Shown in pieces: positions 24,090 to 38,449 of a stretch of 64,000 nt of DNA. The stretch is from Gemmata palustris (GTDB taxonomy: Bacteria > Planctomycetota > Planctomycetia > Gemmatales > Gemmataceae). The notes beneath the pieces were generated by a model, which was not told the DNA's origin, searched no databases, and saw nothing but the letters and a program-made list of their open reading frames with translations. Numbering within the stretch: position 1 is the first letter of the stretch; each line of letters starts with the position of its first letter. The position numbers and the translations under genes were made by a program. The DNA lies in assembly GCF_017939745.1 (NCBI RefSeq), contig NZ_JAGKQQ010000001.1, positions 6,897,299-6,961,298 of the forward strand. Direction: 5' to 3'.

Positions 24090-25076
24090 ATGAAGCACCG
24101 CAAGTTCGGTGACGCGAACGTTTCGGAAGTCGGGCTGGGCTGCTGGCAGATCGGCGGCGATCAGTGGGGCGATGTTGCCGAATCGGACGCACTTGAGGTA
24201 TTGCGGGCCTCCGTCGAAGCCGGTGTCACGTTCCTCGACACCGCGGACGTGTACGGCGCTGGGCGTAGCGAAGAACTGATCGGCCACTTCCTCAAAAATT
24301 ACCCGCGCGAGCGGTTCTTCATCGCGTCGAAGTTCGGGCGGTTCCCGCGCCCAGGTTGGCCCAGCAACTTCGAGCCGAAAACCATTCGCGAACACACTGA
24401 GAATTCGCTGAAGCGCCTCGGGATCGAGCGCCTCGACCTCACGCAACTCCATTGCCTGCCGATGGAGCAGCTCCAGCGCGCCGAGGTGTGGGACACGGTT
24501 CGCGCGCTGAAGCGAGAGGGCAAGATCGCCCGGTTCGGGGCGAGCGTCGAATCGGTGGCCGAAGCGGAAGAGTGCATCAAACACGAGGACTGCGCGTCGC
24601 TGCAAATCATCTTCAACATCTTCCGCCAAACGCCCGAAACGAGTGGCCTCCTCGCCCGCTGCAAGGCGCGCGGGGTCGCGATCATTGTTCGGCTCCCGCT
24701 CGCGTCCGGGTTGCTCGCGGGGAAGTATACGCCCGCAACCACGTTCGGCCCCAACGACCACCGCACCATCAACCGCAACGGCGAGAAGTTCAACGTCGGC
24801 GAAACGTTCGCGGGCCTGGGCTTCGAGAAGGGGCTGGAGACGGTCGAGAAGTTGAAGCCGCTCGTGCCGGCCGGGTACACGCTCCCGCAACTCGCGCTGC
24901 GCTGGTGCCTCGATCACGACGCGGTCACGACCATCATCCCCGGCGCGCGCAACCGATCGCAAGCCCGGGCGAACGCTGCCGCGAGCGATCTCCCGCCACT
25001 CCCGGCGGACGCACATGCGCAACTGCGTGAGTTCTTCGTTTCGGCGGTAAAACCGTTGGTTCGCGGCCCGGATTGA
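24090..25076 (+). CDS. Aldo/keto reductase
   Basis: A 328-residue NAD(P)H-dependent TIM-barrel reductase. The catalytic tetrad is visible: Asp in FLDTADVYG, Tyr in the same motif, Lys in FFIASKFGR and His in LTQLHCLPM. The C-terminal ARNRSQARANAAASDLPPL is the cofactor-binding loop typical of the family. It would reduce an aldehyde or ketone in the cytoplasm; the substrate is unknown. A GGGATCACACG sequence precedes the ATG. It precedes the respiratory operon on the same strand, but the 113-base gap with its own palindrome suggests separate transcription. Confidence 0.93.
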   Translation: MKHRKFGDANVSEVGLGCWQIGGDQWGDVAESDALEVLRASVEAGVTFLDTADVYGAGRSEELIGHFLKNYPRERFFIASKFGRFPRPGWPSNFEPKTIREHTENSLKRLGIERLDLTQLHCLPMEQLQRAEVWDTVRALKREGKIARFGASVESVAEAEECIKHEDCASLQIIFNIFRQTPETSGLLARCKARGVAIIVRLPLASGLLAGKYTPATTFGPNDHRTINRNGEKFNVGETFAGLGFEKGLETVEKLKPLVPAGYTLPQLALRWCLDHDAVTTIIPGARNRSQARANAAASDLPPLPADAHAQLREFFVSAVKPLVRGPD

Positions 25077-25124
25077 TTTCGCCCTTGCCGACCAGTGGCC
25101 GCGACTCATACGATTACCGACGGC

Positions 25125-25142
25125 TTGTGAAAGTTTTCACAA
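25125..25142. promoter_or_regulatory. CRP/FNR-family operator-like palindrome upstream of actA
   Basis: TTGTGAAAGTTTTCACAA is a perfect 18-base inverted repeat (TTGTGAAA, GT, TTTCACAA) that contains TGTGA-N6-TCACA, the consensus recognised by CRP and close relatives of the FNR family. Its centre is 56 bases before the actA start. No second copy was noticed. It is the best candidate switch for the ACIII-cbb3 cluster. Confidence 0.65.
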
Positions 25143-25189
25143 AGTCGCGGTGATCGCTGCATCGGGCTGATTTTTGGGGGAGCGAGAGC

Positions 25190-25855
25190 GTGCCGTCCAT
25201 CTTCTCGCGGTCACTCGATGGTCACGTCCGTCAGGCCGTTATCGGCCTGGGGGTGCTGGTCGCGCTCGTCGGTACCGGCTGGTACTACTACGCGCTGCCG
25301 AGCTACACCCGCGTGGGCTACACGCCGGAACAACCGGTGCCGTTCTCGCACGAGTTGCACGCGGGCAAGCTCGGGATGGATTGCGCGTACTGTCACCAGT
25401 CCGTGTTCGAGTCGCCGCACGCGAGCGTGCCGAGCTCGCAAACGTGCATGAACTGCCACAACCCGAAGAAGGCCAACGTGAAGGGCGCCAGCCCGCTCCT
25501 GGCCCCCGTGCGGTCGAGCTTCGACACCGGGCGCCCGGTGGAGTGGAAGAAGGTTCACAAGCTCCCCGAGTACGCCTACTTCAACCACGCGGTCCACGTC
25601 AACAAGGGCGTGTCGTGCGTGTCGTGTCACGGCCAGGTGAACGAGATGAAGGTCGTGTCACACGAGAAGTTACTCACGATGGGCTGGTGCTTGCAGTGCC
25701 ACAACGACCCGCACGAGCACCTGCGCGACGTGAAGGACGTGACGAACCTGAAATGGAAACCGGAGGGCGGGAAGACCGCCGGGGAGATCGGCGCGTTGCT
25801 CCAAAAGGACTTGCGCGTGGCGCCCCCGATGAACTGCCAGGCGTGCCACCGGTAG
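25190..25855 (+). CDS. actA: Alternative complex III subunit ActA, pentaheme cytochrome c
   Basis: A 221-residue membrane-anchored multiheme protein. One transmembrane helix (AVIGLGVLVALVGTGWYYYA) is followed by a periplasmic part with five C-x-x-C-H heme sites: CAYCH, CMNCH, CVSCH, CLQCH and CQACH. This number agrees with ActA of characterised ACIII complexes. It receives electrons from the iron-sulfur subunit ActB and passes them to ActE and on to the oxidase. The start is a GTG preceded by GGGGGAGCGAGAGC. It is the first gene of the operon and lies 48 bases after a CRP/FNR-type palindrome. Confidence 0.93.
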   Translation: MPSIFSRSLDGHVRQAVIGLGVLVALVGTGWYYYALPSYTRVGYTPEQPVPFSHELHAGKLGMDCAYCHQSVFESPHASVPSSQTCMNCHNPKKANVKGASPLLAPVRSSFDTGRPVEWKKVHKLPEYAYFNHAVHVNKGVSCVSCHGQVNEMKVVSHEKLLTMGWCLQCHNDPHEHLRDVKDVTNLKWKPEGGKTAGEIGALLQKDLRVAPPMNCQACHR

Positions 25856-25934
25856 TTGCGTAACCGGGCGCCCGGAGTTTCACCCCGGGTTCCCGATCCG
25901 ATTGGTTTGGTTCCGATGCGGGCGAAGGGTTCAC

Positions 25935-28900
25935 ATGGACCGACAGAGCTACTACCGCAGTCTCGAACAACTGGCGGATTCGCCGGAATTTCGGGCGTCC
26001 GCGTCGGAAGAGTTCCCCGGCTACGCCAACGTGTTCGAGTCCCTCGGCGCGGCGGAACTGAGGGGCGATGAGCCCGAATCGGTCGGGCTGAATCGCCGCA
26101 GGTTCATGGCGCTGTCGGTCGCGACGCTGGGCGCTGCGGCCCTCGCCGGGTGCCGCCGGCCGGACATCCAGATCCTCCCGTTCTCCGCGGTGCCGGACGA
26201 ACAGATCGGTCACGTCGTTCCCGGTAAGCCGACGTTCTACGCGACGAGCGTTCCGCGGACCGGCGGCGCTCTCCCCGTTCTCGTGGAGAGTCACGACGGG
26301 CGCCCCACCAAGATCGAGGGCAACCCGCAGCACCCGTCCAGCCTCGGCAGCACGGACGTCCACGCACAGGCGTCGGTCCTCGATCTCTACAGCCCCGACC
26401 GCGTGATGTCGGACAAGTACCCCGGCGTGATGGAGGGGAAGGCCGCGCGGAAGTGGGAAGACTTCGACCGGTTCGCGCGCGGCGAAACCGAGAAGCTCGT
26501 CAAGGATAAGGGCAAGGGGTTCTACGTCCTCACGGAGCAGGTGCCTTCGCCCGCGCTGCGTGTACTGCGTGCGGCGATCAAGGACAAGCTCCCGCTCGCG
26601 TCGTGGCACAGCTACGAGGCCGTTGATACGAGTGAATCGCTGAAGGGTGCGGAGACCGCGTTCGGCTCGAAGTTGGTGGCGCGGTACCGCTTCGACAAAG
26701 CGGAGCGCGTCCTGGCGCTCGATAGCGATTTCCTCGGCAACGAAGCGGACGGCGTGTTCCACTCCCGCGGGTTCGCTGCGAAGCGCAAATCCGAGCACAT
26801 GAACCGCTTGTACGTCGTGGAGTCGACGTACACCGTGACCGGCACAATGGCCGATCACCGGCTGCGCGTGCCGGCCACACAAGTGGGCGCGTACCTGCTC
26901 GCGCTGGCAGACGAGCTGAAGAAGACGCACGCGGCGAGCTTCAAGAAGCCGGACGCGGTGCCGGATGTGCTTCCCGCATCGACAGGCTCGTTCCCCGGTA
27001 AGTGGGTGAAGAGCGTCGCGAAGGATTTTGCCGAGCACGCGGGCAAGAGCCTCATCGTCGTTGGCCCGCGGCAAGCCGCGTGGGTTCACGCACTCGCGCA
27101 CGCCCTGAACGACGCGCTGGGCAACTACGCAGCGGGGATGGCCGAGTTCCGCGACGCGCCCGCGGAACAAGTCGACAAGACGCTGAAAGAACTCGTCACG
27201 GACATCGCGGCGGGCCGCGTGAGCACGGTGCTTGTCATCGGCGGCAACCCGGTGTTCAACGCACCGGCCGACTTCCGGTTCGGTGAGGAACTCGCCAAGG
27301 TCGCGAAGAAGATCCGGCTCGGCTCGTTCTTCGATCAAACGTCCGAGAGGTGCGACTGGCACCTGCCGCTCGCGCACTTCCTCGAAGGTTGGGGCGACAC
27401 GGAAGCCGGCGACGGGTCGCTCTGCTGCGTGCAACCGCTGATCGCGCCGCTCAACAGCGGTAAGAGCGGCAGTGATGATGCGGCCCCGCCCGCGCGCGGC
27501 GGGCGCACCGCGCTGGAGGTGCTCGCGCTGCTCACGCAAGCGCCCGGTGCGGACGGCAAGCCGGTCGCATCGTTCACCGCGGCGCAGAAGGCCGGTTACG
27601 GCTACGTCCGCAAGGCGTTCAGCGACCGCAGCGGCATCGCGCTGACGGCCCCGAACTTCGACGACGAGTTCAACCGCTACAAGCAGGTCGGGTTCTTCCC
27701 GGTGGACGCGGACAAAGCCAAAGCGCTCAAGTTCGCGAAGCCGGACGAGACGAACCGCAAGCCGAAGGGCGTGAGCGCGAACAAGGCGCGCGTGGCGGCC
27801 GCTCTCGCACCTTACCAGCCGGCCGAAGCGCCTACCAAGGACGCGGTCGAACTCACGTTCCACCCGTCTTACGCGCTGTACGACGGCAGCGGGGCGATGA
27901 ACCCGTGGCTCCAGGAGATGCCGGACCCGATCACGAAACTCGTGTGGGACAACGCCGCGATCCTGAGTCCCGCGACCGCGACCGCGTTTGGGGTCGCGCA
28001 GAACGACATCGTTGAAATCCGGCTCGGTGAATCCACCCTCGCGGTGCCGGTGTTCGTGCTGCCGGGGCAAGCGGACTACTCGGTCGCGCTCCCGTTCGGG
28101 CAGTTCGGCCAGATGCGGATCGCGCACGTTCCCAACGGCGGCGGAACGGACGTGCTCCCGCTGCGCCGGTCCACCGCACTGCACACCGCGGTCGGTGCCA
28201 CGCTGAAGAAGACCGGCCGAAAAGCGGACCTCGTGACCACGCAGGAGCACGGCGTCATCCCCGAGGGGCGCGACATCGTTCGCGAGGTGGACGCGGGCAA
28301 GAAGAAGGACGATCACCAGCCCGGTTCGGACCACGGGCACGAGAAACCGGGCGGCGCCCACGACCACGGCCCGAAGCTCGGGATCGCACCGACCGGGCAC
28401 ATCACCGAAGAGGCCCTGAAGAAAGAGTTCCAGGGCGGCTACGGCAACAAGCAACAGCCCCCGGCCCCGTCGGGCGTGAAGCAGGAGCGGTTCCCGCTCG
28501 ACCTCGCGCGCCCGGAACTGCTCGACAGCCAGTTCCAGTGGGGCATGGTGATCGACCTCAGCGCCTGCTCCGGGTGTACCGCGTGTCTGATCGCGTGCCA
28601 GACCGAGAACAACATCCCGGTCGTCGGTAAGGACGAGGTGAAGCGCAACCGCGAACTGCACTGGATCCGCATCGACCGCTACTTCTCGTCCGCGACGACC
28701 CACGGCGAGGCCGCCGACGCCGAGCCGACGATTGTGTCGCAGCCGGTCGCGTGCGTCCACTGCGAGGCCGCGCCGTGCGAACAGGTGTGCCCGGTGAACG
28801 CGACGGTCCACAGCCCCGAGGGGCTGAACCTGCAGGTTTACAACCGGTGCATCGGCACGCGGTACTGCTCGAACGCCTGCCCGTACAAGGTCCGCCGGTT

Positions 28901-29474
28901 CAACTGGTTCGACTTCAACAAGCGCCGGCTGGACGAACTGCGGGTCGCGACGCCGTTCGCGAGCGGGGGCATGAGTTTCACCGAGAGCGGCGTGCCCGAG
29001 ACGCTCAAGATGCAGAAGAACCCCGACGTGACCGTGCGGATGCGCGGGGTGATGGAGAAATGTACGTACTGCGTCCAGCGCCTCGAGCGCGGGAAGTACG
29101 GGGCGAAGATCGCCGCCGCGGAAGTGGCCCAGGACCGGCGCACGATCGAAACGGACGGCAGCTTCAAGACCGCGGACGGCTCGCTCTCCGCGTACAAGAA
29201 GCCGAAGAACCCGCTCGCGGCCGGCTACGACCTCGACGCGGTCGGGCGCGTGATCGTTCCAGATGGCGTGATCGTGACCGCGTGCCAGGCGGCGTGCCCG
29301 GCGCAGGCCATCACCTTCGGCAACATGCTCGACCCGAAGAGTAAGGTGGCGAAGCTGAAGGCGCAGGAGAGCGACTACCTGTTGCTCGGCGAACTGAACA
29401 CGAAACCGCGGACGAGCTACCTCCCGCGCCGGTGGAACCGGAATCCGGACATGGTATCGAAATCGGGAGAGTGA
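25935..29474 (+). CDS. actB: Alternative complex III subunit ActB, iron-sulfur/molybdopterin-fold protein
   Basis: A 1,179-residue fusion of a molybdopterin-oxidoreductase-like part and an iron-sulfur part, as in ActB. Residues 54-73 hold a twin-arginine signal ending in a lipobox (RRRFMALS, then LAGC), so it is exported folded and lipid-anchored. The first two thirds resemble the catalytic chain, but in known ACIII this part has lost the cofactor. The last third has four cysteine groups: CSGCTACLIAC, CVHCEAAPCEQVC, CIGTRYCSNAC and CTYC with CQAAC, expected to bind three 4Fe-4S and one 3Fe-4S centres. Residues about 788-815 form a His/Asp/Gly-rich insert. It accepts electrons from quinol oxidised at ActC/ActF. 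Confidence 0.93.
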   Translation: MDRQSYYRSLEQLADSPEFRASASEEFPGYANVFESLGAAELRGDEPESVGLNRRRFMALSVATLGAAALAGCRRPDIQILPFSAVPDEQIGHVVPGKPTFYATSVPRTGGALPVLVESHDGRPTKIEGNPQHPSSLGSTDVHAQASVLDLYSPDRVMSDKYPGVMEGKAARKWEDFDRFARGETEKLVKDKGKGFYVLTEQVPSPALRVLRAAIKDKLPLASWHSYEAVDTSESLKGAETAFGSKLVARYRFDKAERVLALDSDFLGNEADGVFHSRGFAAKRKSEHMNRLYVVESTYTVTGTMADHRLRVPATQVGAYLLALADELKKTHAASFKKPDAVPDVLPASTGSFPGKWVKSVAKDFAEHAGKSLIVVGPRQAAWVHALAHALNDALGNYAAGMAEFRDAPAEQVDKTLKELVTDIAAGRVSTVLVIGGNPVFNAPADFRFGEELAKVAKKIRLGSFFDQTSERCDWHLPLAHFLEGWGDTEAGDGSLCCVQPLIAPLNSGKSGSDDAAPPARGGRTALEVLALLTQAPGADGKPVASFTAAQKAGYGYVRKAFSDRSGIALTAPNFDDEFNRYKQVGFFPVDADKAKALKFAKPDETNRKPKGVSANKARVAAALAPYQPAEAPTKDAVELTFHPSYALYDGSGAMNPWLQEMPDPITKLVWDNAAILSPATATAFGVAQNDIVEIRLGESTLAVPVFVLPGQADYSVALPFGQFGQMRIAHVPNGGGTDVLPLRRSTALHTAVGATLKKTGRKADLVTTQEHGVIPEGRDIVREVDAGKKKDDHQPGSDHGHEKPGGAHDHGPKLGIAPTGHITEEALKKEFQGGYGNKQQPPAPSGVKQERFPLDLARPELLDSQFQWGMVIDLSACSGCTACLIACQTENNIPVVGKDEVKRNRELHWIRIDRYFSSATTHGEAADAEPTIVSQPVACVHCEAAPCEQVCPVNATVHSPEGLNLQVYNRCIGTRYCSNACPYKVRRFNWFDFNKRRLDELRVATPFASGGMSFTESGVPETLKMQKNPDVTVRMRGVMEKCTYCVQRLERGKYGAKIAAAEVAQDRRTIETDGSFKTADGSLSAYKKPKNPLAAGYDLDAVGRVIVPDGVIVTACQAACPAQAITFGNMLDPKSKVAKLKAQESDYLLLGELNTKPRTSYLPRRWNRNPDMVSKSGE

Positions 29475-29578: not shown

Positions 29579-31672
29579 GTGACCGAGACCACCCACACCC
29601 ACGACACGCACGCCGGGCACGGGCCGAAGTTCCCGGACCCGCTGCCGCGCATCCCGCTCGTGTGGGGGCCGGCCGACTACTCCACCGTCTCCGAGCAGAT
29701 CAGCGCGATCACCGAGAAGCCGCAGCCGTACTGGTGGTGGCCCACGCTGCTCGTCACCACGTCGCTGCTGTGCGGTGGCGTGCTGGCCGTGAGCTACCTC
29801 ATCTCGACCGGCGTCGGGGTGTGGGGGAGCAACATCCCGGTCGCGTGGGCGTTCGACATCACCAACTTCGTGTTCTGGATCGGGATCGGGCACGCGGGCA
29901 CGCTCATCAGCGCGATCCTGTTCCTGTTCCGGCAGAAGTGGCGCACGTCGATCAACCGGTTCAGCGAGGCGATGACGATCTTCGCCGTGATCTGCGCGTT
30001 CATTTACCCCGCGATGCACGTCGGGCGCATCTGGTACGCGTGGTTCTCGGCCCCGCTGCCGAACGCGAACCACATTTTCCAGAACTTCCGGTCCCCGCTG
30101 CTGTGGGACGCCTTCGCGATCTCGACGTACTTCACGATCTCGCTGATCTTCTGGTACATCGGCCTGATCCCGGACCTCGCGACGCTCCGCGACCGGGCCA
30201 AGAGCCGCACGCGCCAGATGATCTTCGGGTTCCTCGCGCTCGGGTGGCGCGGGAGCACGCGGCACTGGCGCCACTACGAGGTGGCGTACCTGATGCTCGC
30301 GGGCCTCAGCACGCCGCTCGTGTTGAGCGTCCACTCGGTCGTGAGCTTCGACTTCGCCACGTCGCTGATCCCGGGCTGGCACACGACGATCTTCCCGCCG
30401 TACTTCGTGGCCGGGGCGATCTTCGGCGGGTTCGCGATGGTGCTCCAGTGCATGATCCCGGCCCGCGCCGTGTACAAGCTCGAGAACGTCGTCACCATCA
30501 AGCACATTGATGTGATGTGCAAGTTCATCATGGCGACGGGGACCATCGTCGGGTACGCCTACTGCATGGAGCTGTTCATCGCGTGGTTCTCCGGCAACCC
30601 GTATGAATGGCAGACGTTCAAGAACCGCGCGTTCGACGGCGACTACACCTGGGCCTACTGGGTGATGATGACGTGTAACCTCTTCATCCCTCAAGTGTTC
30701 TGGATCCGGTGGTGCCGGCAGACGCCGTGGTTCGTGCTCATCATCGTGACGTTCGTGAACGTCGGGATGTGGTACGAGCGGTTCGTCATCATCGTGCAAT
30801 CGCTCCACCACGACTTCCTGCCCGGCTCGTGGGGGCAGTTCCACCCGACGTGGGTGGACTGGCTCCAGATGATCGGCGACTTCGGGCTGTTCTTCACGTT
30901 CACCCTGCTGTTCGTCCGGTTCCTGCCGATGGTGGCGATGGCCGAGGTGAAGGGCGTGCTGCCGATGGCGAACCCGCACTACCACCCGACGCCGGAATCA
31001 CAGTACCTGAAGGACGAGCACGGCCAGTACCCGACCGAGGACCACGCGATGGCCGCAGCCTACGGCCCGCCGTCGCACCCGCCGACCGAAGTGCAACCGC
31101 ACACCGAGCCGGTCCCGGCGTTCATCCCGACCCCGGGCGGGACGGGCAAGCCGTGGGGCGCGGTCGCCGAGTTCGCCAACGGTACGGACCTGCTCGCCGC
31201 CGCGAAGAAGGCGCTCGCGGCCGGCTACAAGCACCTGGATGCGTGGACGCCGTTCTATGTCCACGGGATGAAGGAAGCGATCGGGCGCACGCGGAGCCGG
31301 CTGCCGCTGTTCACGCTCGCCGGAGGGCTGACCGGGCTGACCGCGGCCGCGGCGCTGCAGTTCTACCTCATGACGTACTACTACCCGACCATCGTGGGCG
31401 GGAAGGAGTACCGGGCGTGGGAAGCGTTCGTGCCGGTGTTCTTCGAGATGACGATTTTGTTCTCAGGGTTCTTTACGCTGTTCAGCCTGATCGGGCTGTG
31501 CGGGCTGCCGAAGTTCTTTCACCCGCTCGATAGTCACCCGACGTTCAACCGCGGGACGCAGGCGGGGTTCTTCCTGACAATCGAAGCCCTGGACGCGAGT
31601 TTCAGCCCGGACGCGACCCGCGCGTTCCTGGAGTCGCTCGGCGGCAAACACGTGGCGGTGGTCGAAGCATAA
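29579..31672 (+). CDS. actC: ActC-ActD fusion: NrfD-like quinol-binding subunit plus DUF3341 subunit
   Basis: A 697-residue fused protein. Residues 1-455 are an ActC/NrfD-like membrane protein with about ten helices (for example [20 protein letters not shown] and [20 protein letters not shown]), which carries the quinol site. A histidine/proline-rich linker covers about 456-522. Residues about 525-697 are ActD, the DUF3341 protein with two helices ([40 protein letters not shown] and [12 protein letters not shown]). In characterised ACIII these are separate chains. The start is GTG at [10 protein letters not shown]. The gene follows actB by 104 bases; that gap holds a CCAGGGATTTCAGCCCTGG hairpin. 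Confidence 0.92.
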
Positions 31673-31685
31673 GTCGACTTACCCG

Positions 31686-31755
31686 GTCCCTGAAAAGGGG
31701 CAGAAGGTTTTGGTTTTGCTCCCCTTCCCTTCAGGGAGGGGGCCGGGGGTAGGTT
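31686..31755. other. GC-rich palindromic spacer between actCD and actE
   Basis: The spacer contains GGTCCCTGAAAAGGGGC and then CCCCTTCCCTTCAGGGAGGG, two short hairpin-forming blocks with a T-rich stretch between. It may adjust expression of the downstream cytochrome genes, but no full terminator (stem plus T-run) is present. Confidence 0.4.
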
Positions 31756-31772
31756 CTTCAAGGTTCATTCGC

Positions 31773-32642
31773 ATGTACATGATCGACGCGAACGTGTTCA
31801 TGAACACGGTGGTGGCCGTGATCCTCGGCACGACCGCGCTGCTGCTCGGGGCGACGGTGCTGGCGTCGTGGATGGGCAAGCGCGGGCGCGTGATGTCGTA
31901 CCTGTACATGTTCACCGCGCTGTTCGGCTCGTTCACGGTCGTGGTCGCGGCGATGGGGTTCCGCGGGAAGAAGAGCGACTCGCGCCCGTGGCACATCGTC
32001 CTCGACATGAAGTACCAGCCGAAGTACCTGAGCCAGGGTCAGAGCAAATACTTCGCGGACGGCCGGAGCAACCGCCTCCCGCCGGACAACACGGTTCCCT
32101 TTGACGGCACCGACTACGGCGCCGATGCGGGCACCCACAGCGTGCCGAACCCGGACTTCCTGAAGGCCGACAAGCGGTACTACTTCGGCATCGCCAACGC
32201 CGACGCGAAGGGGGCCGACGGCGCGCCCGCGAAGCCCAAGTGGGACGCCGGGAAGTTGACCGGCGAGGGTTACTACGTGAACAACCTCCCGCCGCAAGCG
32301 GTCGAGCGGGTCGGCGGGTGGGAGGCGCTCTTGAAGCGCGGGCAGGTACAGTTCAACCGCAACTGCGCCGTCTGCCACGGCACGAGCGGGCGCGGCGGTG
32401 GCGGCGATCTGGCTTACGGCATCGTGGGCGCCTACGGCCTGAGCGTGCCGCCCGCGAACGTACTCACCCCGGACGTTCAGGCACAACCGGACGGGCAACT
32501 GTTCAACACCGTGACCAACGGGAAGGGCTCGATGTCCGGCTACGGGCACCAGGTGCGGGACGCACTGGACCGCTGGGCGATCGTGGCCTACGTCCGCGAG
32601 TTGCAGTTCGCGAACGGGAACGCGGTGGCGGACAAGAAGTAA
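31773..32642 (+). CDS. actE: ActE-like mono-heme cytochrome c of alternative complex III
   Basis: About 289 residues. The N-terminus has two hydrophobic helices (VFMNTVVAVILGTTALLLGA and MFTALFGSFTVVVAAMGFRG). The C-terminal part is a class I cytochrome c with one CAVCH heme site and a distal methionine candidate in KGSMSGYG. It stands where ActE is expected in ACIII operons. The family member carries electrons from ActA to the oxidase. The ATG at 31773 (MYMIDANVF) with an AAGG-type ribosome binding site was chosen; the frame is open further upstream but lacks a plausible signal. A mid region (KYFADGRSNRLPPDNTVPFD) of unusual sequence precedes the cytochrome fold. Confidence 0.85.
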   Translation: MYMIDANVFMNTVVAVILGTTALLLGATVLASWMGKRGRVMSYLYMFTALFGSFTVVVAAMGFRGKKSDSRPWHIVLDMKYQPKYLSQGQSKYFADGRSNRLPPDNTVPFDGTDYGADAGTHSVPNPDFLKADKRYYFGIANADAKGADGAPAKPKWDAGKLTGEGYYVNNLPPQAVERVGGWEALLKRGQVQFNRNCAVCHGTSGRGGGGDLAYGIVGAYGLSVPPANVLTPDVQAQPDGQLFNTVTNGKGSMSGYGHQVRDALDRWAIVAYVRELQFANGNAVADKK

Positions 32643-32745: not shown

Positions 32746-34017
32746 ATGAGTACCGCGAACATCACCGACGGCGCCGGCGGACCCCCGCCGCTCACCTACC
32801 CCGCCGGGCTGCCGGACCGCGTTGCCCCCGTTGGTGACGCGCTCGCCAGCGGTATTCGCACCCTCGTCGCGGTCCTGTTGGGCACCGGCGCGCTGCTCGT
32901 GATCGGGCTGTTCACGGACGCGAAACAGTTCTACCACTCGTACCTGTTCGGGTACGTGTTCGCCCTCGACATCGCGCTCGGCGCGCTGTTCTGGACGCTG
33001 ATCCACCACGTCGCGGACGCGGGCTGGTCGGTCGGGTTGCGGCGCGTGTTCGAGAACATCAACCGCGCGATCATACCGCTCACGGCGCTGTTCGTGCCGG
33101 TACTGGTCGGCACGTTCACGGGCAACCTGCACGCCTGGTACGAGTTCGTTCACACCGTGCCGCAAAAGGGGCACGGCGAGCACCTGTGGCACGTCAAGCA
33201 CCTGTACTTCAACACGCCGTTCTTCGCGACCCGGATCGTGATCTACTTCGCGGTGTGGATCGGGTACTCGGTGGTGATGCGGAACTGGTCCACGAAGCAG
33301 GACGCGGTCGGCGGCGTAGCGCTCACGCGGAAGATGCAGTGGTGGGCGCCGTCGGGCGTCGCGCTCCTGGGGCTCACGACCACGTTCTTCGCGTTCGACG
33401 TCCTGATGAGCCTTCAGTACTCGTGGTTCAGCACGATCTTCGGCGTGTACTTCTGGGCCGGCGGCATCCGCGGGTCGCTCGCCACGGTCGTCCTCGTGGT
33501 GCTCGGGCTCCGGGCCGCGGGGTTCCTGCGGAACACGATCACGATGGAGCACCTGCACGACGTCGCGAAGATCATGTTCGGGTTCACCGTGTTCTGGACG
33601 TACATCGCGTTCGCGCAGTATTTCCTGATCTGGTACGGGAACGTGCCGGAGGAGACGCAGTTCTACCTGCTCCGGCGCAACGGGGCGTGGAACACGATGA
33701 GCATTTTGCTCCCGATCCTGTACTTCGTGGTGCCGTTTTTCATGCTGCTGCCACGAGCGCACAAGCGGAGCCCCGTGTGGCTCGCGCTCATCAGCTCGTG
33801 GATCTTGGTCATGCACGCATATGATCTCTACTGGCAGGTGATGCCGGTGCTGCACCAGGACACGATCCACTTCCACTGGCTGGACGCCGCGGCGCCGGTG
33901 TTCATGTTCAGCGTGGTGCTGCTCTCGGCGATCTGGGGGTTCACGCGCCTGCCGCTGATCCCGATCCGCGACGCGCGGCTGAACGAAACGATCGGGTACG
34001 AGAACGAGACGCCCTGA
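32746..34017 (+). CDS. actF: Alternative complex III subunit ActF, NrfD-like membrane protein
   Basis: A 423-residue membrane protein with about ten helices, related to ActC. Characteristic pieces are LFGYVFALDIALGALFWTLI, FVHTVPQKGHGEHLWHVKHL and FDVLMSLQYSWFSTIFGVYF. It is annotated elsewhere as the second quinol:cytochrome c oxidoreductase quinone-binding subunit. In ACIII it pairs with ActC in the membrane. It follows actE by 103 bases and is followed by two small membrane proteins. The start is ATG at MSTANITDG. Confidence 0.92.
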   Translation: MSTANITDGAGGPPPLTYPAGLPDRVAPVGDALASGIRTLVAVLLGTGALLVIGLFTDAKQFYHSYLFGYVFALDIALGALFWTLIHHVADAGWSVGLRRVFENINRAIIPLTALFVPVLVGTFTGNLHAWYEFVHTVPQKGHGEHLWHVKHLYFNTPFFATRIVIYFAVWIGYSVVMRNWSTKQDAVGGVALTRKMQWWAPSGVALLGLTTTFFAFDVLMSLQYSWFSTIFGVYFWAGGIRGSLATVVLVVLGLRAAGFLRNTITMEHLHDVAKIMFGFTVFWTYIAFAQYFLIWYGNVPEETQFYLLRRNGAWNTMSILLPILYFVVPFFMLLPRAHKRSPVWLALISSWILVMHAYDLYWQVMPVLHQDTIHFHWLDAAAPVFMFSVVLLSAIWGFTRLPLIPIRDARLNETIGYENETP

Positions 34018-34106: not shown

Positions 34107-34541
34107 ATGATTTCTTCCCCGGTGCCGAACTCGGACCCCGACCCCGCAACGATAATGACCGACCCGAGCTCCAATAACGCGGTTCCCGCTGACCCGTCCC
34201 AGGGCTTCCCGTTCATCACGGTGGGCGCGTCGGTGGGCGTGCTGTTCGCGTTCCTGTTCCTCATGTGGCTCGTGACGAACCGCGAGAACGTGCTGGACGC
34301 ATCGAAGACCGATCTGAAGGGCGAGCCCAAGCCGGACGCCGCCGCGAAGCTCGACGAGGTGAAGGCGCGCAACGAGGCGGCCCTCAACGGCGTCGGCGCG
34401 AAGATGTCGCGCGACGAGGCGCGGGGGAAGCTGCTCTCTTCACTCAAGGGGCCGAACGACAAGATGCCGTTCCCCGCACCGGAACCGCCGGCCCCCGTTG
34501 CGCCGAAGAAGGACGAACCCAAGAAGGACGGGAAAGGATAA
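34107..34541 (+). CDS. Single-span membrane protein of unknown function in the respiratory cluster
   Basis: A 144-residue protein (or 128 if it starts at MTDPSSNN, 34155). One clear transmembrane helix (FPFITVGASVGVLFAFLFLM) is followed by about 85 charged residues rich in Lys, Glu, Ala and Pro (VLDASKTDLKGEPKPDA, then a C-terminal PKKDEPKKDGKG). No heme, metal or quinone motif is visible. It sits between actF and the CcoS-like gene, 5 bases from the latter, so it is probably translated with it. It might be a supercomplex linker, an assembly factor or a subunit; this is inferred from position only. Confidence 0.6.
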   Translation: MISSPVPNSDPDPATIMTDPSSNNAVPADPSQGFPFITVGASVGVLFAFLFLMWLVTNRENVLDASKTDLKGEPKPDAAAKLDEVKARNEAALNGVGAKMSRDEARGKLLSSLKGPNDKMPFPAPEPPAPVAPKKDEPKKDGKG

Positions 34542-34546
34542 GGGCC

Positions 34547-34807
34547 ATGAGTGCGCTTGCCGCCCTGTTCGCGGCCCACGAGGTCGCCGTTCCGGGCGCG
34601 CCCGTGAGTGCGGCCGACGTCGCGCTGTTCGCGACCGTGATCGGGTCGATCGTGCTGTTCGGCGGCGCGGCCGCCCTCGCCCTCAGTTGGGCGTTCCGCG
34701 ACGGCCAGTTCGATAACTTTCAGCAGGGCTCGCAGTCCATCTTCGGGCCGGACGAGCCCGTTGGCGAGGCGACCGACACGTTCCCCGGAACGCGGGACGG
34801 GCGCTAG
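34547..34807 (+). CDS. ccoS: CcoS-like cbb3 oxidase maturation peptide
   Basis: An 86-residue membrane peptide with one helix (ALFATVIGSIVLFGGAAALA) followed by LSWAFRDGQFDNFQQGSQSI. The W-A-x-x-x-G-Q-F-D-x pattern just after the helix is the signature of CcoS, which is needed for cofactor insertion into cbb3 oxidase in Rhodobacter. The rest of the sequence is divergent, so the assignment rests on this motif and on the adjacent ccoN. The ATG has an AAGGATAAGGGCC sequence upstream. The gene follows the previous one by only 5 bases. Confidence 0.6.
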   Translation: MSALAALFAAHEVAVPGAPVSAADVALFATVIGSIVLFGGAAALALSWAFRDGQFDNFQQGSQSIFGPDEPVGEATDTFPGTRDGR

Positions 34808-34879: not shown

Positions 34880-36334
34880 ATGGCCGTGATCGCACCCGAA
34901 CCCCGCCAATACGATCGCGCGAAATCGGCGGAAGAGCGCGCCGCAATCGACGCGTCGTGCCGCGGACCGGTGCTGCTCTTCGCCTCGAGCGCGGTGCTCT
35001 GGTTGCTCGTGGGGTCCGCGCTCGCGCTCCTCGCGTCGATCAAGCTCCACAGCCCGTACTTCCTCACCGGGAGCGCGGAACTCACGTTCGGCCGCGCCCG
35101 CATGGCGCACCTCCAGTCGGTCGGGATCGGCTGGTCGTCGCTCGCGGCGGTGGCCGCGTGCCTGTGGCTCATGTGCCGGTTGTCGCGCGCGGAACTGATC
35201 TACCCGAAGATGCTGTACCTGGCCGGCGCGCTCTGGAACGTGGGCGTGTTCCTCGCGGTGTTCGGCATCCTGTTCGGCGACGGCCAGTCGGTGGAGTGGC
35301 TCGACGCCCCGCCCTACGCGCCGCCGTTCTTCGTGGCCGCGCTGGGGCTCGTCTCGGCGTGGACGGTGGCCACGTTCCGCCGGCGCCGCGAGCTCCACGT
35401 GTACGTCACGCAGTGGTACATCCTCGGCGCGGTGTTCTGGTTCCCGTGGCTCTACCTCGTCGCCCAGTTCGTCATCTTCTGGATGCCCGTTCCCGGCGTG
35501 GTGCAGCCGATCGTGAACTGGTGGTTCGGGCACAACGTGCTCGGGCTGTGGTTCACGCCGGTCGCCGTGGGGACCGCGTACTACCTCATCCCGAAGATCA
35601 TCGGGCGCCCCGTCCACAGCTACTACCTGAGCATCATCGGGTTCTGGGCGCTGGCGCTGTTCTACTCGTGGGCCGGGATGCACCACCTGATCGGCGGGCC
35701 GATCCCGGCGTGGCTCGCGACCGCCAGCACCGTCGGCAGCATGATGATGTTCATCCCGGTGATCGCGGTGGCGATCAACCACCACATGACGATGCTCGGG
35801 CACTTCCAGCGCCTGCGGTACAGCCCGGCCCTGCGGTTCACCGTGTTCGGGTCGATCTCGTACACAGTGGTGAGCTTCCAGGGGTCGCTCATGGCCCTGA
35901 AGGACTTCAGCGAAACGGCCCACTTCACGCACTACATCGTGGCCCACGCGCACCTCGGGGCGTATGCGTTCGTCACGATGATTTTCTTCGGGCTGTTCTA
36001 CTACATGGTCCCGCGCCTCACCGGGCGCGAGTGGCCGAGTAGCACGCTGATCCGCGTCCACTTCTGGTGCGCCGCGGTGGGGATCACGGCGTACTTCGCG
36101 GCGCTCTCCATCGGCGGGTGGTGGCAGGGCCGCATGATGAACAACCCGGACGTGCCGTTCGCCAAGATCGTTCTGTACACGCAACCGCACCTGTTCGCGC
36201 GATCGGTCGCGGGGATCTTGCTCACGACCGGGCACATCGCGTTCGCGACGTCGTTCGTGATGAACCTCGCCGGGTGGGGGCAGAAGCGCACCGGCCCGAC
36301 GTTCTTCGTGGAGCCGGCCGAACGGAAACTGTGA
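34880..36334 (+). CDS. ccoN: cbb3-type cytochrome c oxidase subunit I
   Basis: A 484-residue heme-copper oxidase subunit with about twelve helices. The metal-binding histidines are present: His77 (MAHLQSVGIGW) for the low-spin heme, His218 (WWFGHNVLGLW) and His268/His269 (WAGMHHLIGG) for CuB, and the pair His356/His358 (VAHAHLGAYAF) for the hemes. It lacks the long C-terminal extensions of A-type oxidases and resembles CcoN. It reduces O2 to water and pumps protons. CcoO is encoded 409 bases downstream on the same strand, with its own promoter-like sequence in the gap. Confidence 0.93.
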   Translation: MAVIAPEPRQYDRAKSAEERAAIDASCRGPVLLFASSAVLWLLVGSALALLASIKLHSPYFLTGSAELTFGRARMAHLQSVGIGWSSLAAVAACLWLMCRLSRAELIYPKMLYLAGALWNVGVFLAVFGILFGDGQSVEWLDAPPYAPPFFVAALGLVSAWTVATFRRRRELHVYVTQWYILGAVFWFPWLYLVAQFVIFWMPVPGVVQPIVNWWFGHNVLGLWFTPVAVGTAYYLIPKIIGRPVHSYYLSIIGFWALALFYSWAGMHHLIGGPIPAWLATASTVGSMMMFIPVIAVAINHHMTMLGHFQRLRYSPALRFTVFGSISYTVVSFQGSLMALKDFSETAHFTHYIVAHAHLGAYAFVTMIFFGLFYYMVPRLTGREWPSSTLIRVHFWCAAVGITAYFAALSIGGWWQGRMMNNPDVPFAKIVLYTQPHLFARSVAGILLTTGHIAFATSFVMNLAGWGQKRTGPTFFVEPAERKL

Positions 36335-36625: not shown

Positions 36626-36743
36626 CGCGGCGGGGCGATCTGCGGGTGCCGATCAGCAGGGTAAGGCGAACGCGATTCGGGTGTTTACACTGGGCGCGTG
36701 TTTCGACATTTAGTGTCCGCGGCGCGTTTCTTGAGGGACCGAT

Positions 36744-37562
36744 ATGGACCGCGGGATGGTGATTTTTCTGGGAGCGGTGCTCACGTTCTCGTCGAGCTGG
36801 CTGGGACTGGTCGTGTTCCCGTTCTGGCAGTTGGGGAAGCAGCAGCCGTACCAGAAGGACGAGGGCGACGAGCCGTACCCGCAGCCGCTCCAGGGCACCG
36901 CGCTCGCGGGCCGCAAGGTCTATCAGAACAACGGCTGCATGTACTGTCACACGCAGCAGGTGCGCAGCGAGAAGTTCGGCGACTGGTGGGACGCGAACGG
37001 CGAGCACAAGACCGGGGCCGACATCAAGCGGAGCTACGGCCTGCGGCGCACCGTGTCGCGCGACTACATCTACGACAACCCGACCATGCTCGGCACCATG
37101 CGCACCGGGCCGGACCTCGCGAACATCGGCGCCCGCAACCCGTCGGACGCCTGGCACCACACGCACCTGTTCAACCCGCGGTCGGCGAACGTGTGGAGCA
37201 TCATGCCGTCGTTCGCGTTCTTCTACGCCCGCGAGAAGATCGTCGGGGGCCGCAGCGACAAGGCACTGTCGCTGGGGCGCGAGTGGACCGTCGACCCCGG
37301 GTACCGGTGGCGCCCGAGTACGAAAGAATGGGACGCGGTCCTCGCGAGCCGCGGGAGCGCCCTCGTCGCGCAGTACACCGCGGGCCAGCCCGAGGCGATC
37401 AACATCGGCACGCCCGAGGGCAAGAAGCGCCTCTTGGAGTTCTGGCTGACGACGCCGGAAGAAGAGTACCAGGTGATCCCGACCGCCGAGGGCGACGCGC
37501 TGGTCGCGTACCTGTTGGCGCTGCGGAAGGCCGAAGTCCCGCTGCCGGAGGCGAAGGAATGA
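36744..37562 (+). CDS. ccoO: cbb3-type cytochrome c oxidase mono-heme subunit
   Basis: A 272-residue protein with one N-terminal transmembrane helix (MVIFLGAVLTFSSSWLGLVV) and a periplasmic cytochrome c domain. The heme site is GCMYCHTQQVRSE, the classical CcoO signature, with an axial Met candidate in IMPSF, as in the family. It takes electrons to the heme b of CcoN. Compared with proteobacterial CcoO it has an added region around KIVGGRSDKALSLGREWTV. The stop codon overlaps the start of the next gene (ATGA), which indicates coupled translation. The start is ATG at MDRGMVIF; a short in-frame GTG exists further upstream. Confidence 0.92.
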   Translation: MDRGMVIFLGAVLTFSSSWLGLVVFPFWQLGKQQPYQKDEGDEPYPQPLQGTALAGRKVYQNNGCMYCHTQQVRSEKFGDWWDANGEHKTGADIKRSYGLRRTVSRDYIYDNPTMLGTMRTGPDLANIGARNPSDAWHHTHLFNPRSANVWSIMPSFAFFYAREKIVGGRSDKALSLGREWTVDPGYRWRPSTKEWDAVLASRGSALVAQYTAGQPEAINIGTPEGKKRLLEFWLTTPEEEYQVIPTAEGDALVAYLLALRKAEVPLPEAKE

Positions 37563-38449
37563 GCACGCCGAACCCGAACGACGCGCCGAAAACGGACGCG
37601 CCGGTCGTTCCGACCGGCGGCGACTCCGTGTCCGACCTGCACCGGGCGCACATGATCCAGATGAACGACCCGGTGATGCTCACCGCGGACGGCGTGGACG
37701 ACAGCCCCGAGAGCGACGAGCCGGGCGCCGGCGGATCGGACTCCGTGCAGGGCCTGCACGAGATGGTGATGCGCGAACAGGCCGAGCCGCGCGACGGGTT
37801 CGAGCCGATCCCGTTCTGGGTCGCGGTCGTGTGCGGCGGGCTGCTCATGTGGGGCGGCTACTACGTCGGCGCGAACTCCGCCGACTTCCGGCGCGACGTG
37901 TTCGACGAGCCGGACCCGAAGCCGACCGCCGTCCAGGGGCCGACCGCCGACCCCGATCCGCAAACGGTCGACGACCTGAAGGCGGTCGGCAAGCAGAAGT
38001 ACGACGCGATCTGCGCCGCGTGCCACTTGCCGGACGGGAAGGGGAAGCCGAGCGAACAGCCGCCGATTCCGCCGCTGGACCGGTCCGAGTGGGTCGCGGG
38101 GGACAAGGCGACGCCCGCGCGCCTTTCGCGGATCTTGCTCTACGGGCTCAAGGGGCCGATCGAGGTGGACGGCAAGCCGTTCTCCGGCACCGGCACGGCC
38201 ATGCCCGCACACGGCTCGCTGCTGAAGGACTACGAGATCGCCGGTGTGCTCGCCCACATCCGCAACAGTTGGTCGAACAAAGCCGACGCGGACAACGCGA
38301 AGCCCGCGATCACCGGCGCGACCGTGAAGGCCGCTCGCGCCAAAGAGAAGGACGGCAAGCGCGCGACCAACGGCACCGAGCAGATGACCGCGGAGGAGCT
38401 TCTGAACCTCGCCCGCGACTACACTGATCCGCCCGCGGCAAAGAAGTAA
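37559..38449 (+). CDS. Mono-heme CcoP-like membrane cytochrome c
   Basis: A 296-residue cytochrome. A hydrophilic region of about 85 residues contains two similar blocks (DSVSDLHRAHMI and DSVQGLHEMVMR). A transmembrane helix (FWVAVVCGGLLMWGGYYVGA) then follows the phrase FEPIPFW, which resembles the N-terminal helix of CcoP. A single cytochrome c domain has CAACH as heme site and a Met ligand candidate in TAMPAHG. Normal CcoP has two hemes, so this is a reduced or diverged version. The ATG overlaps the ccoO stop by four bases. It is probably the third core subunit of the oxidase; the C-terminal 40 residues are charged and lack a known motif. Confidence 0.8.
   Translation: MSTPNPNDAPKTDAPVVPTGGDSVSDLHRAHMIQMNDPVMLTADGVDDSPESDEPGAGGSDSVQGLHEMVMREQAEPRDGFEPIPFWVAVVCGGLLMWGGYYVGANSADFRRDVFDEPDPKPTAVQGPTADPDPQTVDDLKAVGKQKYDAICAACHLPDGKGKPSEQPPIPPLDRSEWVAGDKATPARLSRILLYGLKGPIEVDGKPFSGTGTAMPAHGSLLKDYEIAGVLAHIRNSWSNKADADNAKPAITGATVKAARAKEKDGKRATNGTEQMTAEELLNLARDYTDPPAAKK

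Follow-up and report, generated by a model that had tools for sequence, protein, structure and literature searches.

The palindrome upstream of the alternative complex III genes of Gemmata palustris is very probably an operator for the NADH-responsive repressor Rex

Which regulator reads the palindrome that stands before the genes for an alternative complex III (ACIII) and a cbb3-like oxidase in Gemmata palustris? In the window (the whole stretch of 64,000 nucleotides analysed here), direct look-up located the 18-mer TTGTGAAAGTTTTCACAA at 25125-25142, within the 113-bp gap 5' of actA. The upstream neighbour of this gap, an aldo/keto reductase gene, ends at 25076, and 47 bases separate the end of the palindrome from the GTG start of actA (25190). 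The first-pass annotation had described a perfect 18-base palindrome containing TGTGA-N6-TCACA; its place and its exact core stand, but the reverse complement, TTGTGAAAACTTTCACAA, pairs at 16 of 18 positions, with arms of 8 and an unpaired central GT. Read at full length, the 18-mer (25125..25142, no strand assigned; TTGTGAA-AGTT-TTCACAA) matches the Rex operator TTGTGAA-N4-TTCACAA with zero mismatches. This is the general Rex consensus, TTGTGAANNNNTTCACAA, cited from Ravcheev 2012 in PMC5317091, and the operator given for Rex of Streptomyces avermitilis in PMC5355995; in Staphylococcus aureus the consensus is TTGTGAAW4TTCACAA, and was earlier written TGTGAn6TCACA (PMC2883068), so that the likeness to a CRP site met here is found in that species as well.

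By assuming independent bases, the base composition of the window and a genome of 9.23 Mbp, about 0.002 exact copies of TTGTGAA-N4-TTCACAA are expected per genome, whereas two were found, the present 18-mer and one before nuoA; the annotators' view that chance is an unlikely origin is thus upheld. With up to two mismatches, the pattern occurs at 18 places in the genome against five for a reversed control pattern. The looser TGTGAN6TCACA form occurs at nine places (one for its reversed control) and is therefore less telling by itself. These patterns, together with the evidence below, indicate that the actA palindrome very probably serves Rex and not a CRP/FNR protein. The whole explanation, in which the site is an operator for the single Rex of this genome, repressing both ACIII-cbb3 and complex I and relieved by NADH, is one that we hold with high confidence on comparative sequence grounds.

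Profile searches of the genome detected a single Rex gene (C2:2210-2881), whose 223-aa product combines the winged-helix domain PF06971 (51.9 bits) with the Rossmann domain PF02629 and scores 237.5 bits against NCBIfam NF003995, for which the cut-off is 126. Its best PDB chain is Rex of Thermotoga maritima (5zz5; E = 6.8e-46). When the DNA-contact residues of the T. maritima protein, taken from PMC8836258, were compared with Glu34 left out, eight of 11 were identical (Arg12, Ser33, Gln46, Arg48, Gly58, Arg60, Gly61 and Tyr64). Arg48, Arg60, Gly61 and the NAD-site motif GxGxxG, here GVGNLG, are thus shared with the T. maritima Rex-operator complex (PMC8836258; 7WB3), whereas Lys43, the base-contacting Lys49 and Ser52 of that protein are Ser, Arg and Ala in the present Rex. 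S. avermitilis Rex binds the rex-hem promoter (PMC5355995); here, in contrast, no site with two or fewer mismatches was found near rex on C2, autoregulation not being treated as a defining property.

A promoter, TTGCCG-N18-TACGAT, is predicted on the + strand at 25085..25114, its -10 box ending 10 bp before the operator, a spacing that is conserved in relatives. Upstream of the operator, TTGnnn-N16..20-TAnnAT is present in 12 of the 15 actA regions with an exact site, against 0.17% of shuffles; 11 of these 12 predicted promoters have TTGCCR, and all have 10 bp between the -10 box and the operator. Because a general scan for sigma-70 promoters, which sets stricter rules for the hexamers, recognized none at actA, the call rests on this conservation.

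All of the genes downstream lie on the + strand. The first, actA (25190..25855), encodes a 221-aa multihaem cytochrome c subunit of ACIII (Pfam cytochrome c7/c3); GGGGGAG, likely its ribosome site, precedes the GTG start, and a TTG at 25174 opens a longer ORF in a different frame. The next, actB (25902..29474; ORF start unrefined), encodes a molybdopterin-oxidoreductase-like protein with 4Fe-4S domains (Fer4), in which TIGR04519, a TAT-variant molybdopterin oxidoreductase, exceeds its cut-off and the QrcC, QrcB and DsrO relatives stay below theirs. In 29579..31672, actC and actD are fused in one frame (NrfD + ActD; PF03916 and PF11821 over cut-off). It is followed by a cytochrome c subunit gene (31710..32642; PF13442), probably actE by its position, and by a frame that is probably actF (32746..34017), likewise by position, with no Pfam or NCBIfam match. 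A FixS-like frame (34265..34807; PF03597, 20.6 bits, below the cut-off of 23.1) is a candidate for a cbb3 maturation factor. Subunit I of the haem-copper oxidase (34880..36334) is CcoN-like (PF00115, 246 bits; best NCBIfam ccoN, 224 bits with a cut-off of 583), and the product of 36698..38449, which has a cytochrome c domain at its C-terminus (PF00034/PF13442, with ccoP far below cut-off), is a candidate oxidase subunit.

The other exact operator, at C1:752812, ends 34 bp 5' of a nuoA gene that is followed by nuoB, nuoC and nuoD of complex I, and a site with two mismatches (C1:762566) lies about 10 kb onward in the same nuo cluster, beside a NuoJ-type gene. While NAD+ prevails, a Rex dimer would sit on the 18-mer just past the actA -10 box and block RNA polymerase; when NADH builds up, for want of oxygen or another acceptor, Rex would bind it and leave, and the ACIII-cbb3 operon would be transcribed. 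The same Rex would govern the nuoABCD... operon through the exact site at nuoA, the sole other one in the genome, and, as this operator is common to nuo and ACIII-cbb3, complex I and ACIII-cbb3 would be raised together. Rex binding, the direction of repression, the NADH response, the operon structure and the link to oxygen are all inferred. Repression by blocking is likely, because the operator lies approximately at the predicted transcription start, as does the one at cydA1 of S. avermitilis, where Rex protects -3 to +25 and expression is higher in a rex mutant (PMC5355995). Alternatively, Rex may bind without being a simple on/off repressor, for example fine-tuning an actA promoter that is set by a second activator. 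The poor -35 box (TTGCCR) and the empty generic promoter scan favour such an arrangement, and accessory regulators have been postulated for some Rex targets of S. aureus (PMC2883068); the position 10 bp after the -10 box, however, resembles the cydA1 site (PMC5355995), and we regard fine-tuning as unlikely, if worth bearing in mind.

The first-pass annotation had named conservation upstream of actA as a check on the site, and this conservation was found within the genus and in part of the family. Among 28 family loci with this type of ActA (at least 57% identity), 15 have an exact site, two have one mismatch, two are weak (two mismatches at -270; three mismatches at -17), eight have none, and one is without upstream sequence. 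In the window's own genus (g1), the 16 loci with upstream sequence comprise 13 exact, two one-mismatch and one three-mismatch site. The spacers differ between the actA copies and both 7-mers are fixed. Four of the siteless loci belong to genus g37, the others to genomes G071, G034, G040 and G005, of which G040 and G005 are without Rex. As eight of the 28 loci are siteless and two only weak, control of ACIII by this operator is lineage-specific. In a partly overlapping, hence not independent, survey of named records, the 17 closest loci (68-95% identity) gave 10 exact, one one-mismatch and one three-mismatch site, four without a site and one cut short. The overlap includes locus L036 (Gemmata sp. 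IIL30; ActA 95% identical) and genome G009, which belong to the same genus and have identical Rex coordinates. These 17 and another 63 (L037-L099) are the best 80 of 216 ActA relatives; none of the 63, most of them titled Verrucomicrobiota or Balneola, has a site with two or fewer mismatches, and three Balneola loci reach three. Rex was found in 16 of 17 tested genomes of the closest ActA group against none of 13 of the distant group, and the distant loci, with neither site nor Rex in tested genomes, thus set a limit to the reach of ACIII control.

Two variations were seen around actA in relatives. In genome G022 (L113) tandem operators precede actA, the second with one mismatch, and G015 and G018 have only this second form. 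In genus g37 the operator is absent from all four loci, and three of them (L026, L028 and L031) keep TTGCCG-N18-TACCGT followed by a shared TTCCCTGTCC; Rex control of actA has apparently been lost or replaced there.

Across the 95 genomes of the family, 63 exact operators were found in 44 genomes, against one copy in one genome for the reversed pattern. The downstream gene is nuoA in 30 cases, actA in 15, a Rieske-type gene in five (four by Pfam, L126, L127, L212 and L213; L128, cut at a contig end, by its similar N-terminus), an ATP-synthase gene-1-like gene in three (L221 above the cut-off, L217 and L225 slightly under it) and NDH-2 in one, all of them genes of energy metabolism. To the remaining nine (L119, L124, L203, L205, L210, L211, L214, L215 and L230) no respiratory gene could be tied, and some of these may be chance or assembly-gap cases. 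All of the Rieske-gene operators occur in genus g28.

Three other readings of the 18-mer were weighed against Rex. One is that of the first-pass annotation, an oxygen-, redox- or energy-sensing CRP/FNR-family regulator that acts on actA, as activator or repressor, from the TGTGA-N6-TCACA site. The 16-mer core is indeed exact, and, according to the annotation's own motif and the S. aureus sites once written TGTGAn6TCACA (PMC2883068), it is common to CRP and Rex operators; the redox-linked look of the site was well seen. To judge from the sequence, the choice of family was not, because the block conserved in relatives takes in bases outside as well as inside the CRP core, as 7+7 with N4, which is the Rex operator, and because the sites accompany Rex across genomes. 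The CRP/FNR homologue that the annotation had supposed in the strain was not found either: in this genome, which is 99.1% complete, searches with PF00027 and PF13545 yielded no protein that joins a cNMP-type domain to a Crp HTH. The five proteins with PF00027 are fusions, one each with an ABC transporter, an Fe-S protein and a patatin and two with flavoproteins, and none has a Crp-type HTH. Of the three PF13545 matches one exceeds the cut-off; the three comprise a regulator of the GntR/LacI type, a protein without assignment and an ECF sigma factor. With no CRP/FNR protein among these matches, the reading was dropped as scarcely credible. Still less is to be said for a non-regulatory 18-mer, that is, a chance palindrome or an RNA hairpin or terminator of the aldo/keto reductase gene. 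The short gap after that gene does hold the 18-mer, but the expectation of 0.002 exact copies, the fixed arms with variable spacers, the lack of a T run after the 18-mer and the recurrence of its pattern before nuoA make this reading next to negligible.

A different regulator that shares the recognition sequence of Rex is very improbable, although some genomes speak for it and against Rex. In seven family genomes an exact site was found and Rex was not: G025 and G064 are 68-74% complete, and G019 and G046, where the site precedes nuoA, are 90-92% complete in 610-1430 contigs; G067, G068 and G094, however, reach a completeness of 92-100% with no more than 320 contigs. Against such a regulator stand the association of the site with Rex and the change in operator sequence that accompanies residues 49 and 60 of Rex (described below), both of which rest on few independent events. 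An exact site is present in 37 of 58 family genomes with Rex and in seven of 37 without, and a sample of 297 genomes of the class shows the site in 94 of 166 with Rex and 12 of 131 without. Family f4, with 95 genomes, has no Rex over cut-off (one match below), and the site occurs in five of its genomes; if f4 is left out, the class figures are 94 of 166 and seven of 36. Fisher values for this co-occurrence, and for the dialects below, overstate the evidence, because the two Rex residue classes fall into two main clades, with few independent events.

The nuoA sites were compared by class of Rex. Where Rex has Arg49 and Arg60, as here, and this type of nuoA is present, an upstream site with no more than three mismatches was found in 34 of 35 genomes, 28 of them exact, the exception (G016) being at a contig edge. 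With Lys49 and Pro60 the nuoA site is present in all 18 genomes tested (of 20), and with Lys49 and Arg60 in both genomes, the weaker sites of Lys49 genomes being matched by up to two of 100 shuffles. Among the 37 Rex-less genomes of the family, the 15 examined at nuoA comprise six with a site (exact in G019 and G046; one to two mismatches in G002, G003, G067 and G032) and nine without. Outside the family, the first 19 listed sites of the class sample (18 in f3, one in f2), drawn from 69 genomes with a site, all precede nuoA. Many of the nuoA regions read (L001, L199, L200, L117, L204 and others) show, immediately 5' of the operator, a hairpin and T run that resemble a terminator (cctcgac...gtcgagg-ttgtttttt).

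The operator differs between these groups. In Arg49/Arg60 genomes, T occupies operator position 2 in 63 of 66 nuoA half-sites and A position 7 in 65 of 66, against 13 of 32 and 19 of 32 in Lys49/Pro60 genomes (example, TCGTGAAAAAAATCACGA); the count left out G016, G071, G034 and G062, which have no GTGA-N6-TCAC core. A second dialect, TYGTGA-N6-TCACRA (nuoA regions L298-L315), goes with the Lys49 and Pro60 Rex. Arg60 of T. maritima Rex touches a T (PMC8836258), which by our own alignment of site centres is operator position 2. In a tree of 58 Rex proteins the two residue classes coincide with the two main clades, four rows being long or unplaced. That the dialect is set in step with residues 49 and 60 is suggestive only.

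The genome has a second copy of each of the two complexes. A second nuo cluster (nuoA, nuoB and nuoC; C1:5491656-5493361) has no operator, its best match having five mismatches. A second ACIII cluster (C1:4676000-4692000; L231) encodes ActA, ActB, ActC and ActD, and the adjoining COX2-cytochrome c subunit points to a caa3-type oxidase. For this second ActA type, none of eight upstream regions fetched has a site with three or fewer mismatches; the best site has four, at -435 in the present genome, and two of 100 shuffles were as good. In genus g28, six of seven genomes gave no ActA match and the remaining one only a weak hit (E = 4e-4), and with ActA all but undetected beside Rieske-gene sites, NADH sensing appears to follow the lineage's complex III. 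We lean, with some reserve, towards a wider reading, in which Rex of Gemmata-type planctomycetes would select a whole chain, consisting of one of two nuo clusters and the cbb3-linked one of two ACIII clusters, with NADH sensing following the complex III of the lineage and the operator having drifted into two dialects with the two Rex clades. The other nuo cluster and the ACIII that adjoins the caa3-type oxidase subunit would then lie outside the Rex-selected chain.

Rex and its operator are already well known. The S. avermitilis regulon (PMC5355995) has the same TTGTGAANNNNTTCACAA operator, nuo, ndh2 and atp targets, and at cydA1 an operator just past the transcription start, as is predicted at actA; its oxidase target, however, is cytochrome bd (cydA1B1CD), where the present genome has ACIII-cbb3. 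The targets named for S. aureus Rex in the passages of PMC2883068 are anaerobic genes, such as those of fermentation and nitrate/nitrite respiration. In its available part, PMC5317091 treats both Rex and ACIII of a single genome and draws no link between them. PMC4215793 connects Rex with Rnf and sulfate-reduction genes, and mentions alternative complex III just in the title of a reference. A single paper, PMC13344008, names both the repressor Rex and planctomycetes; judged by titles and the starts of abstracts, the entries listed from the open-licence literature gave no account of Rex control of ACIII or of a planctomycete Rex regulon. The present reading would link Rex to alternative complex III and, for a respiratory switch in the planctomycetes, name the regulator, the signal (NADH/NAD+) and a few targets; it also corrects the CRP call, on which gel shifts would have been aimed at proteins not found in the genome.

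Some near-matches in the genome were also read. Neither of the two one-mismatch sites precedes a known respiratory gene, which counts against Rex: downstream of C1:5058250, at a distance of 13 bp, comes a DUF1559 gene, and downstream of C1:143932 (L161 5933-5950), at about 360 bp, a DUF4912 gene that is followed by an ApbE (flavinylation) gene. Of the seven TGTGAN6TCACA sites that are not exact Rex operators, C1:5058250 and C1:6172275 were examined. The latter, TTGTGACATTTGTCACAA (L165 4276-4293), differs from the Rex pattern at two positions, stands 2 bp after a TTGACA box and is probably the site of another regulator.
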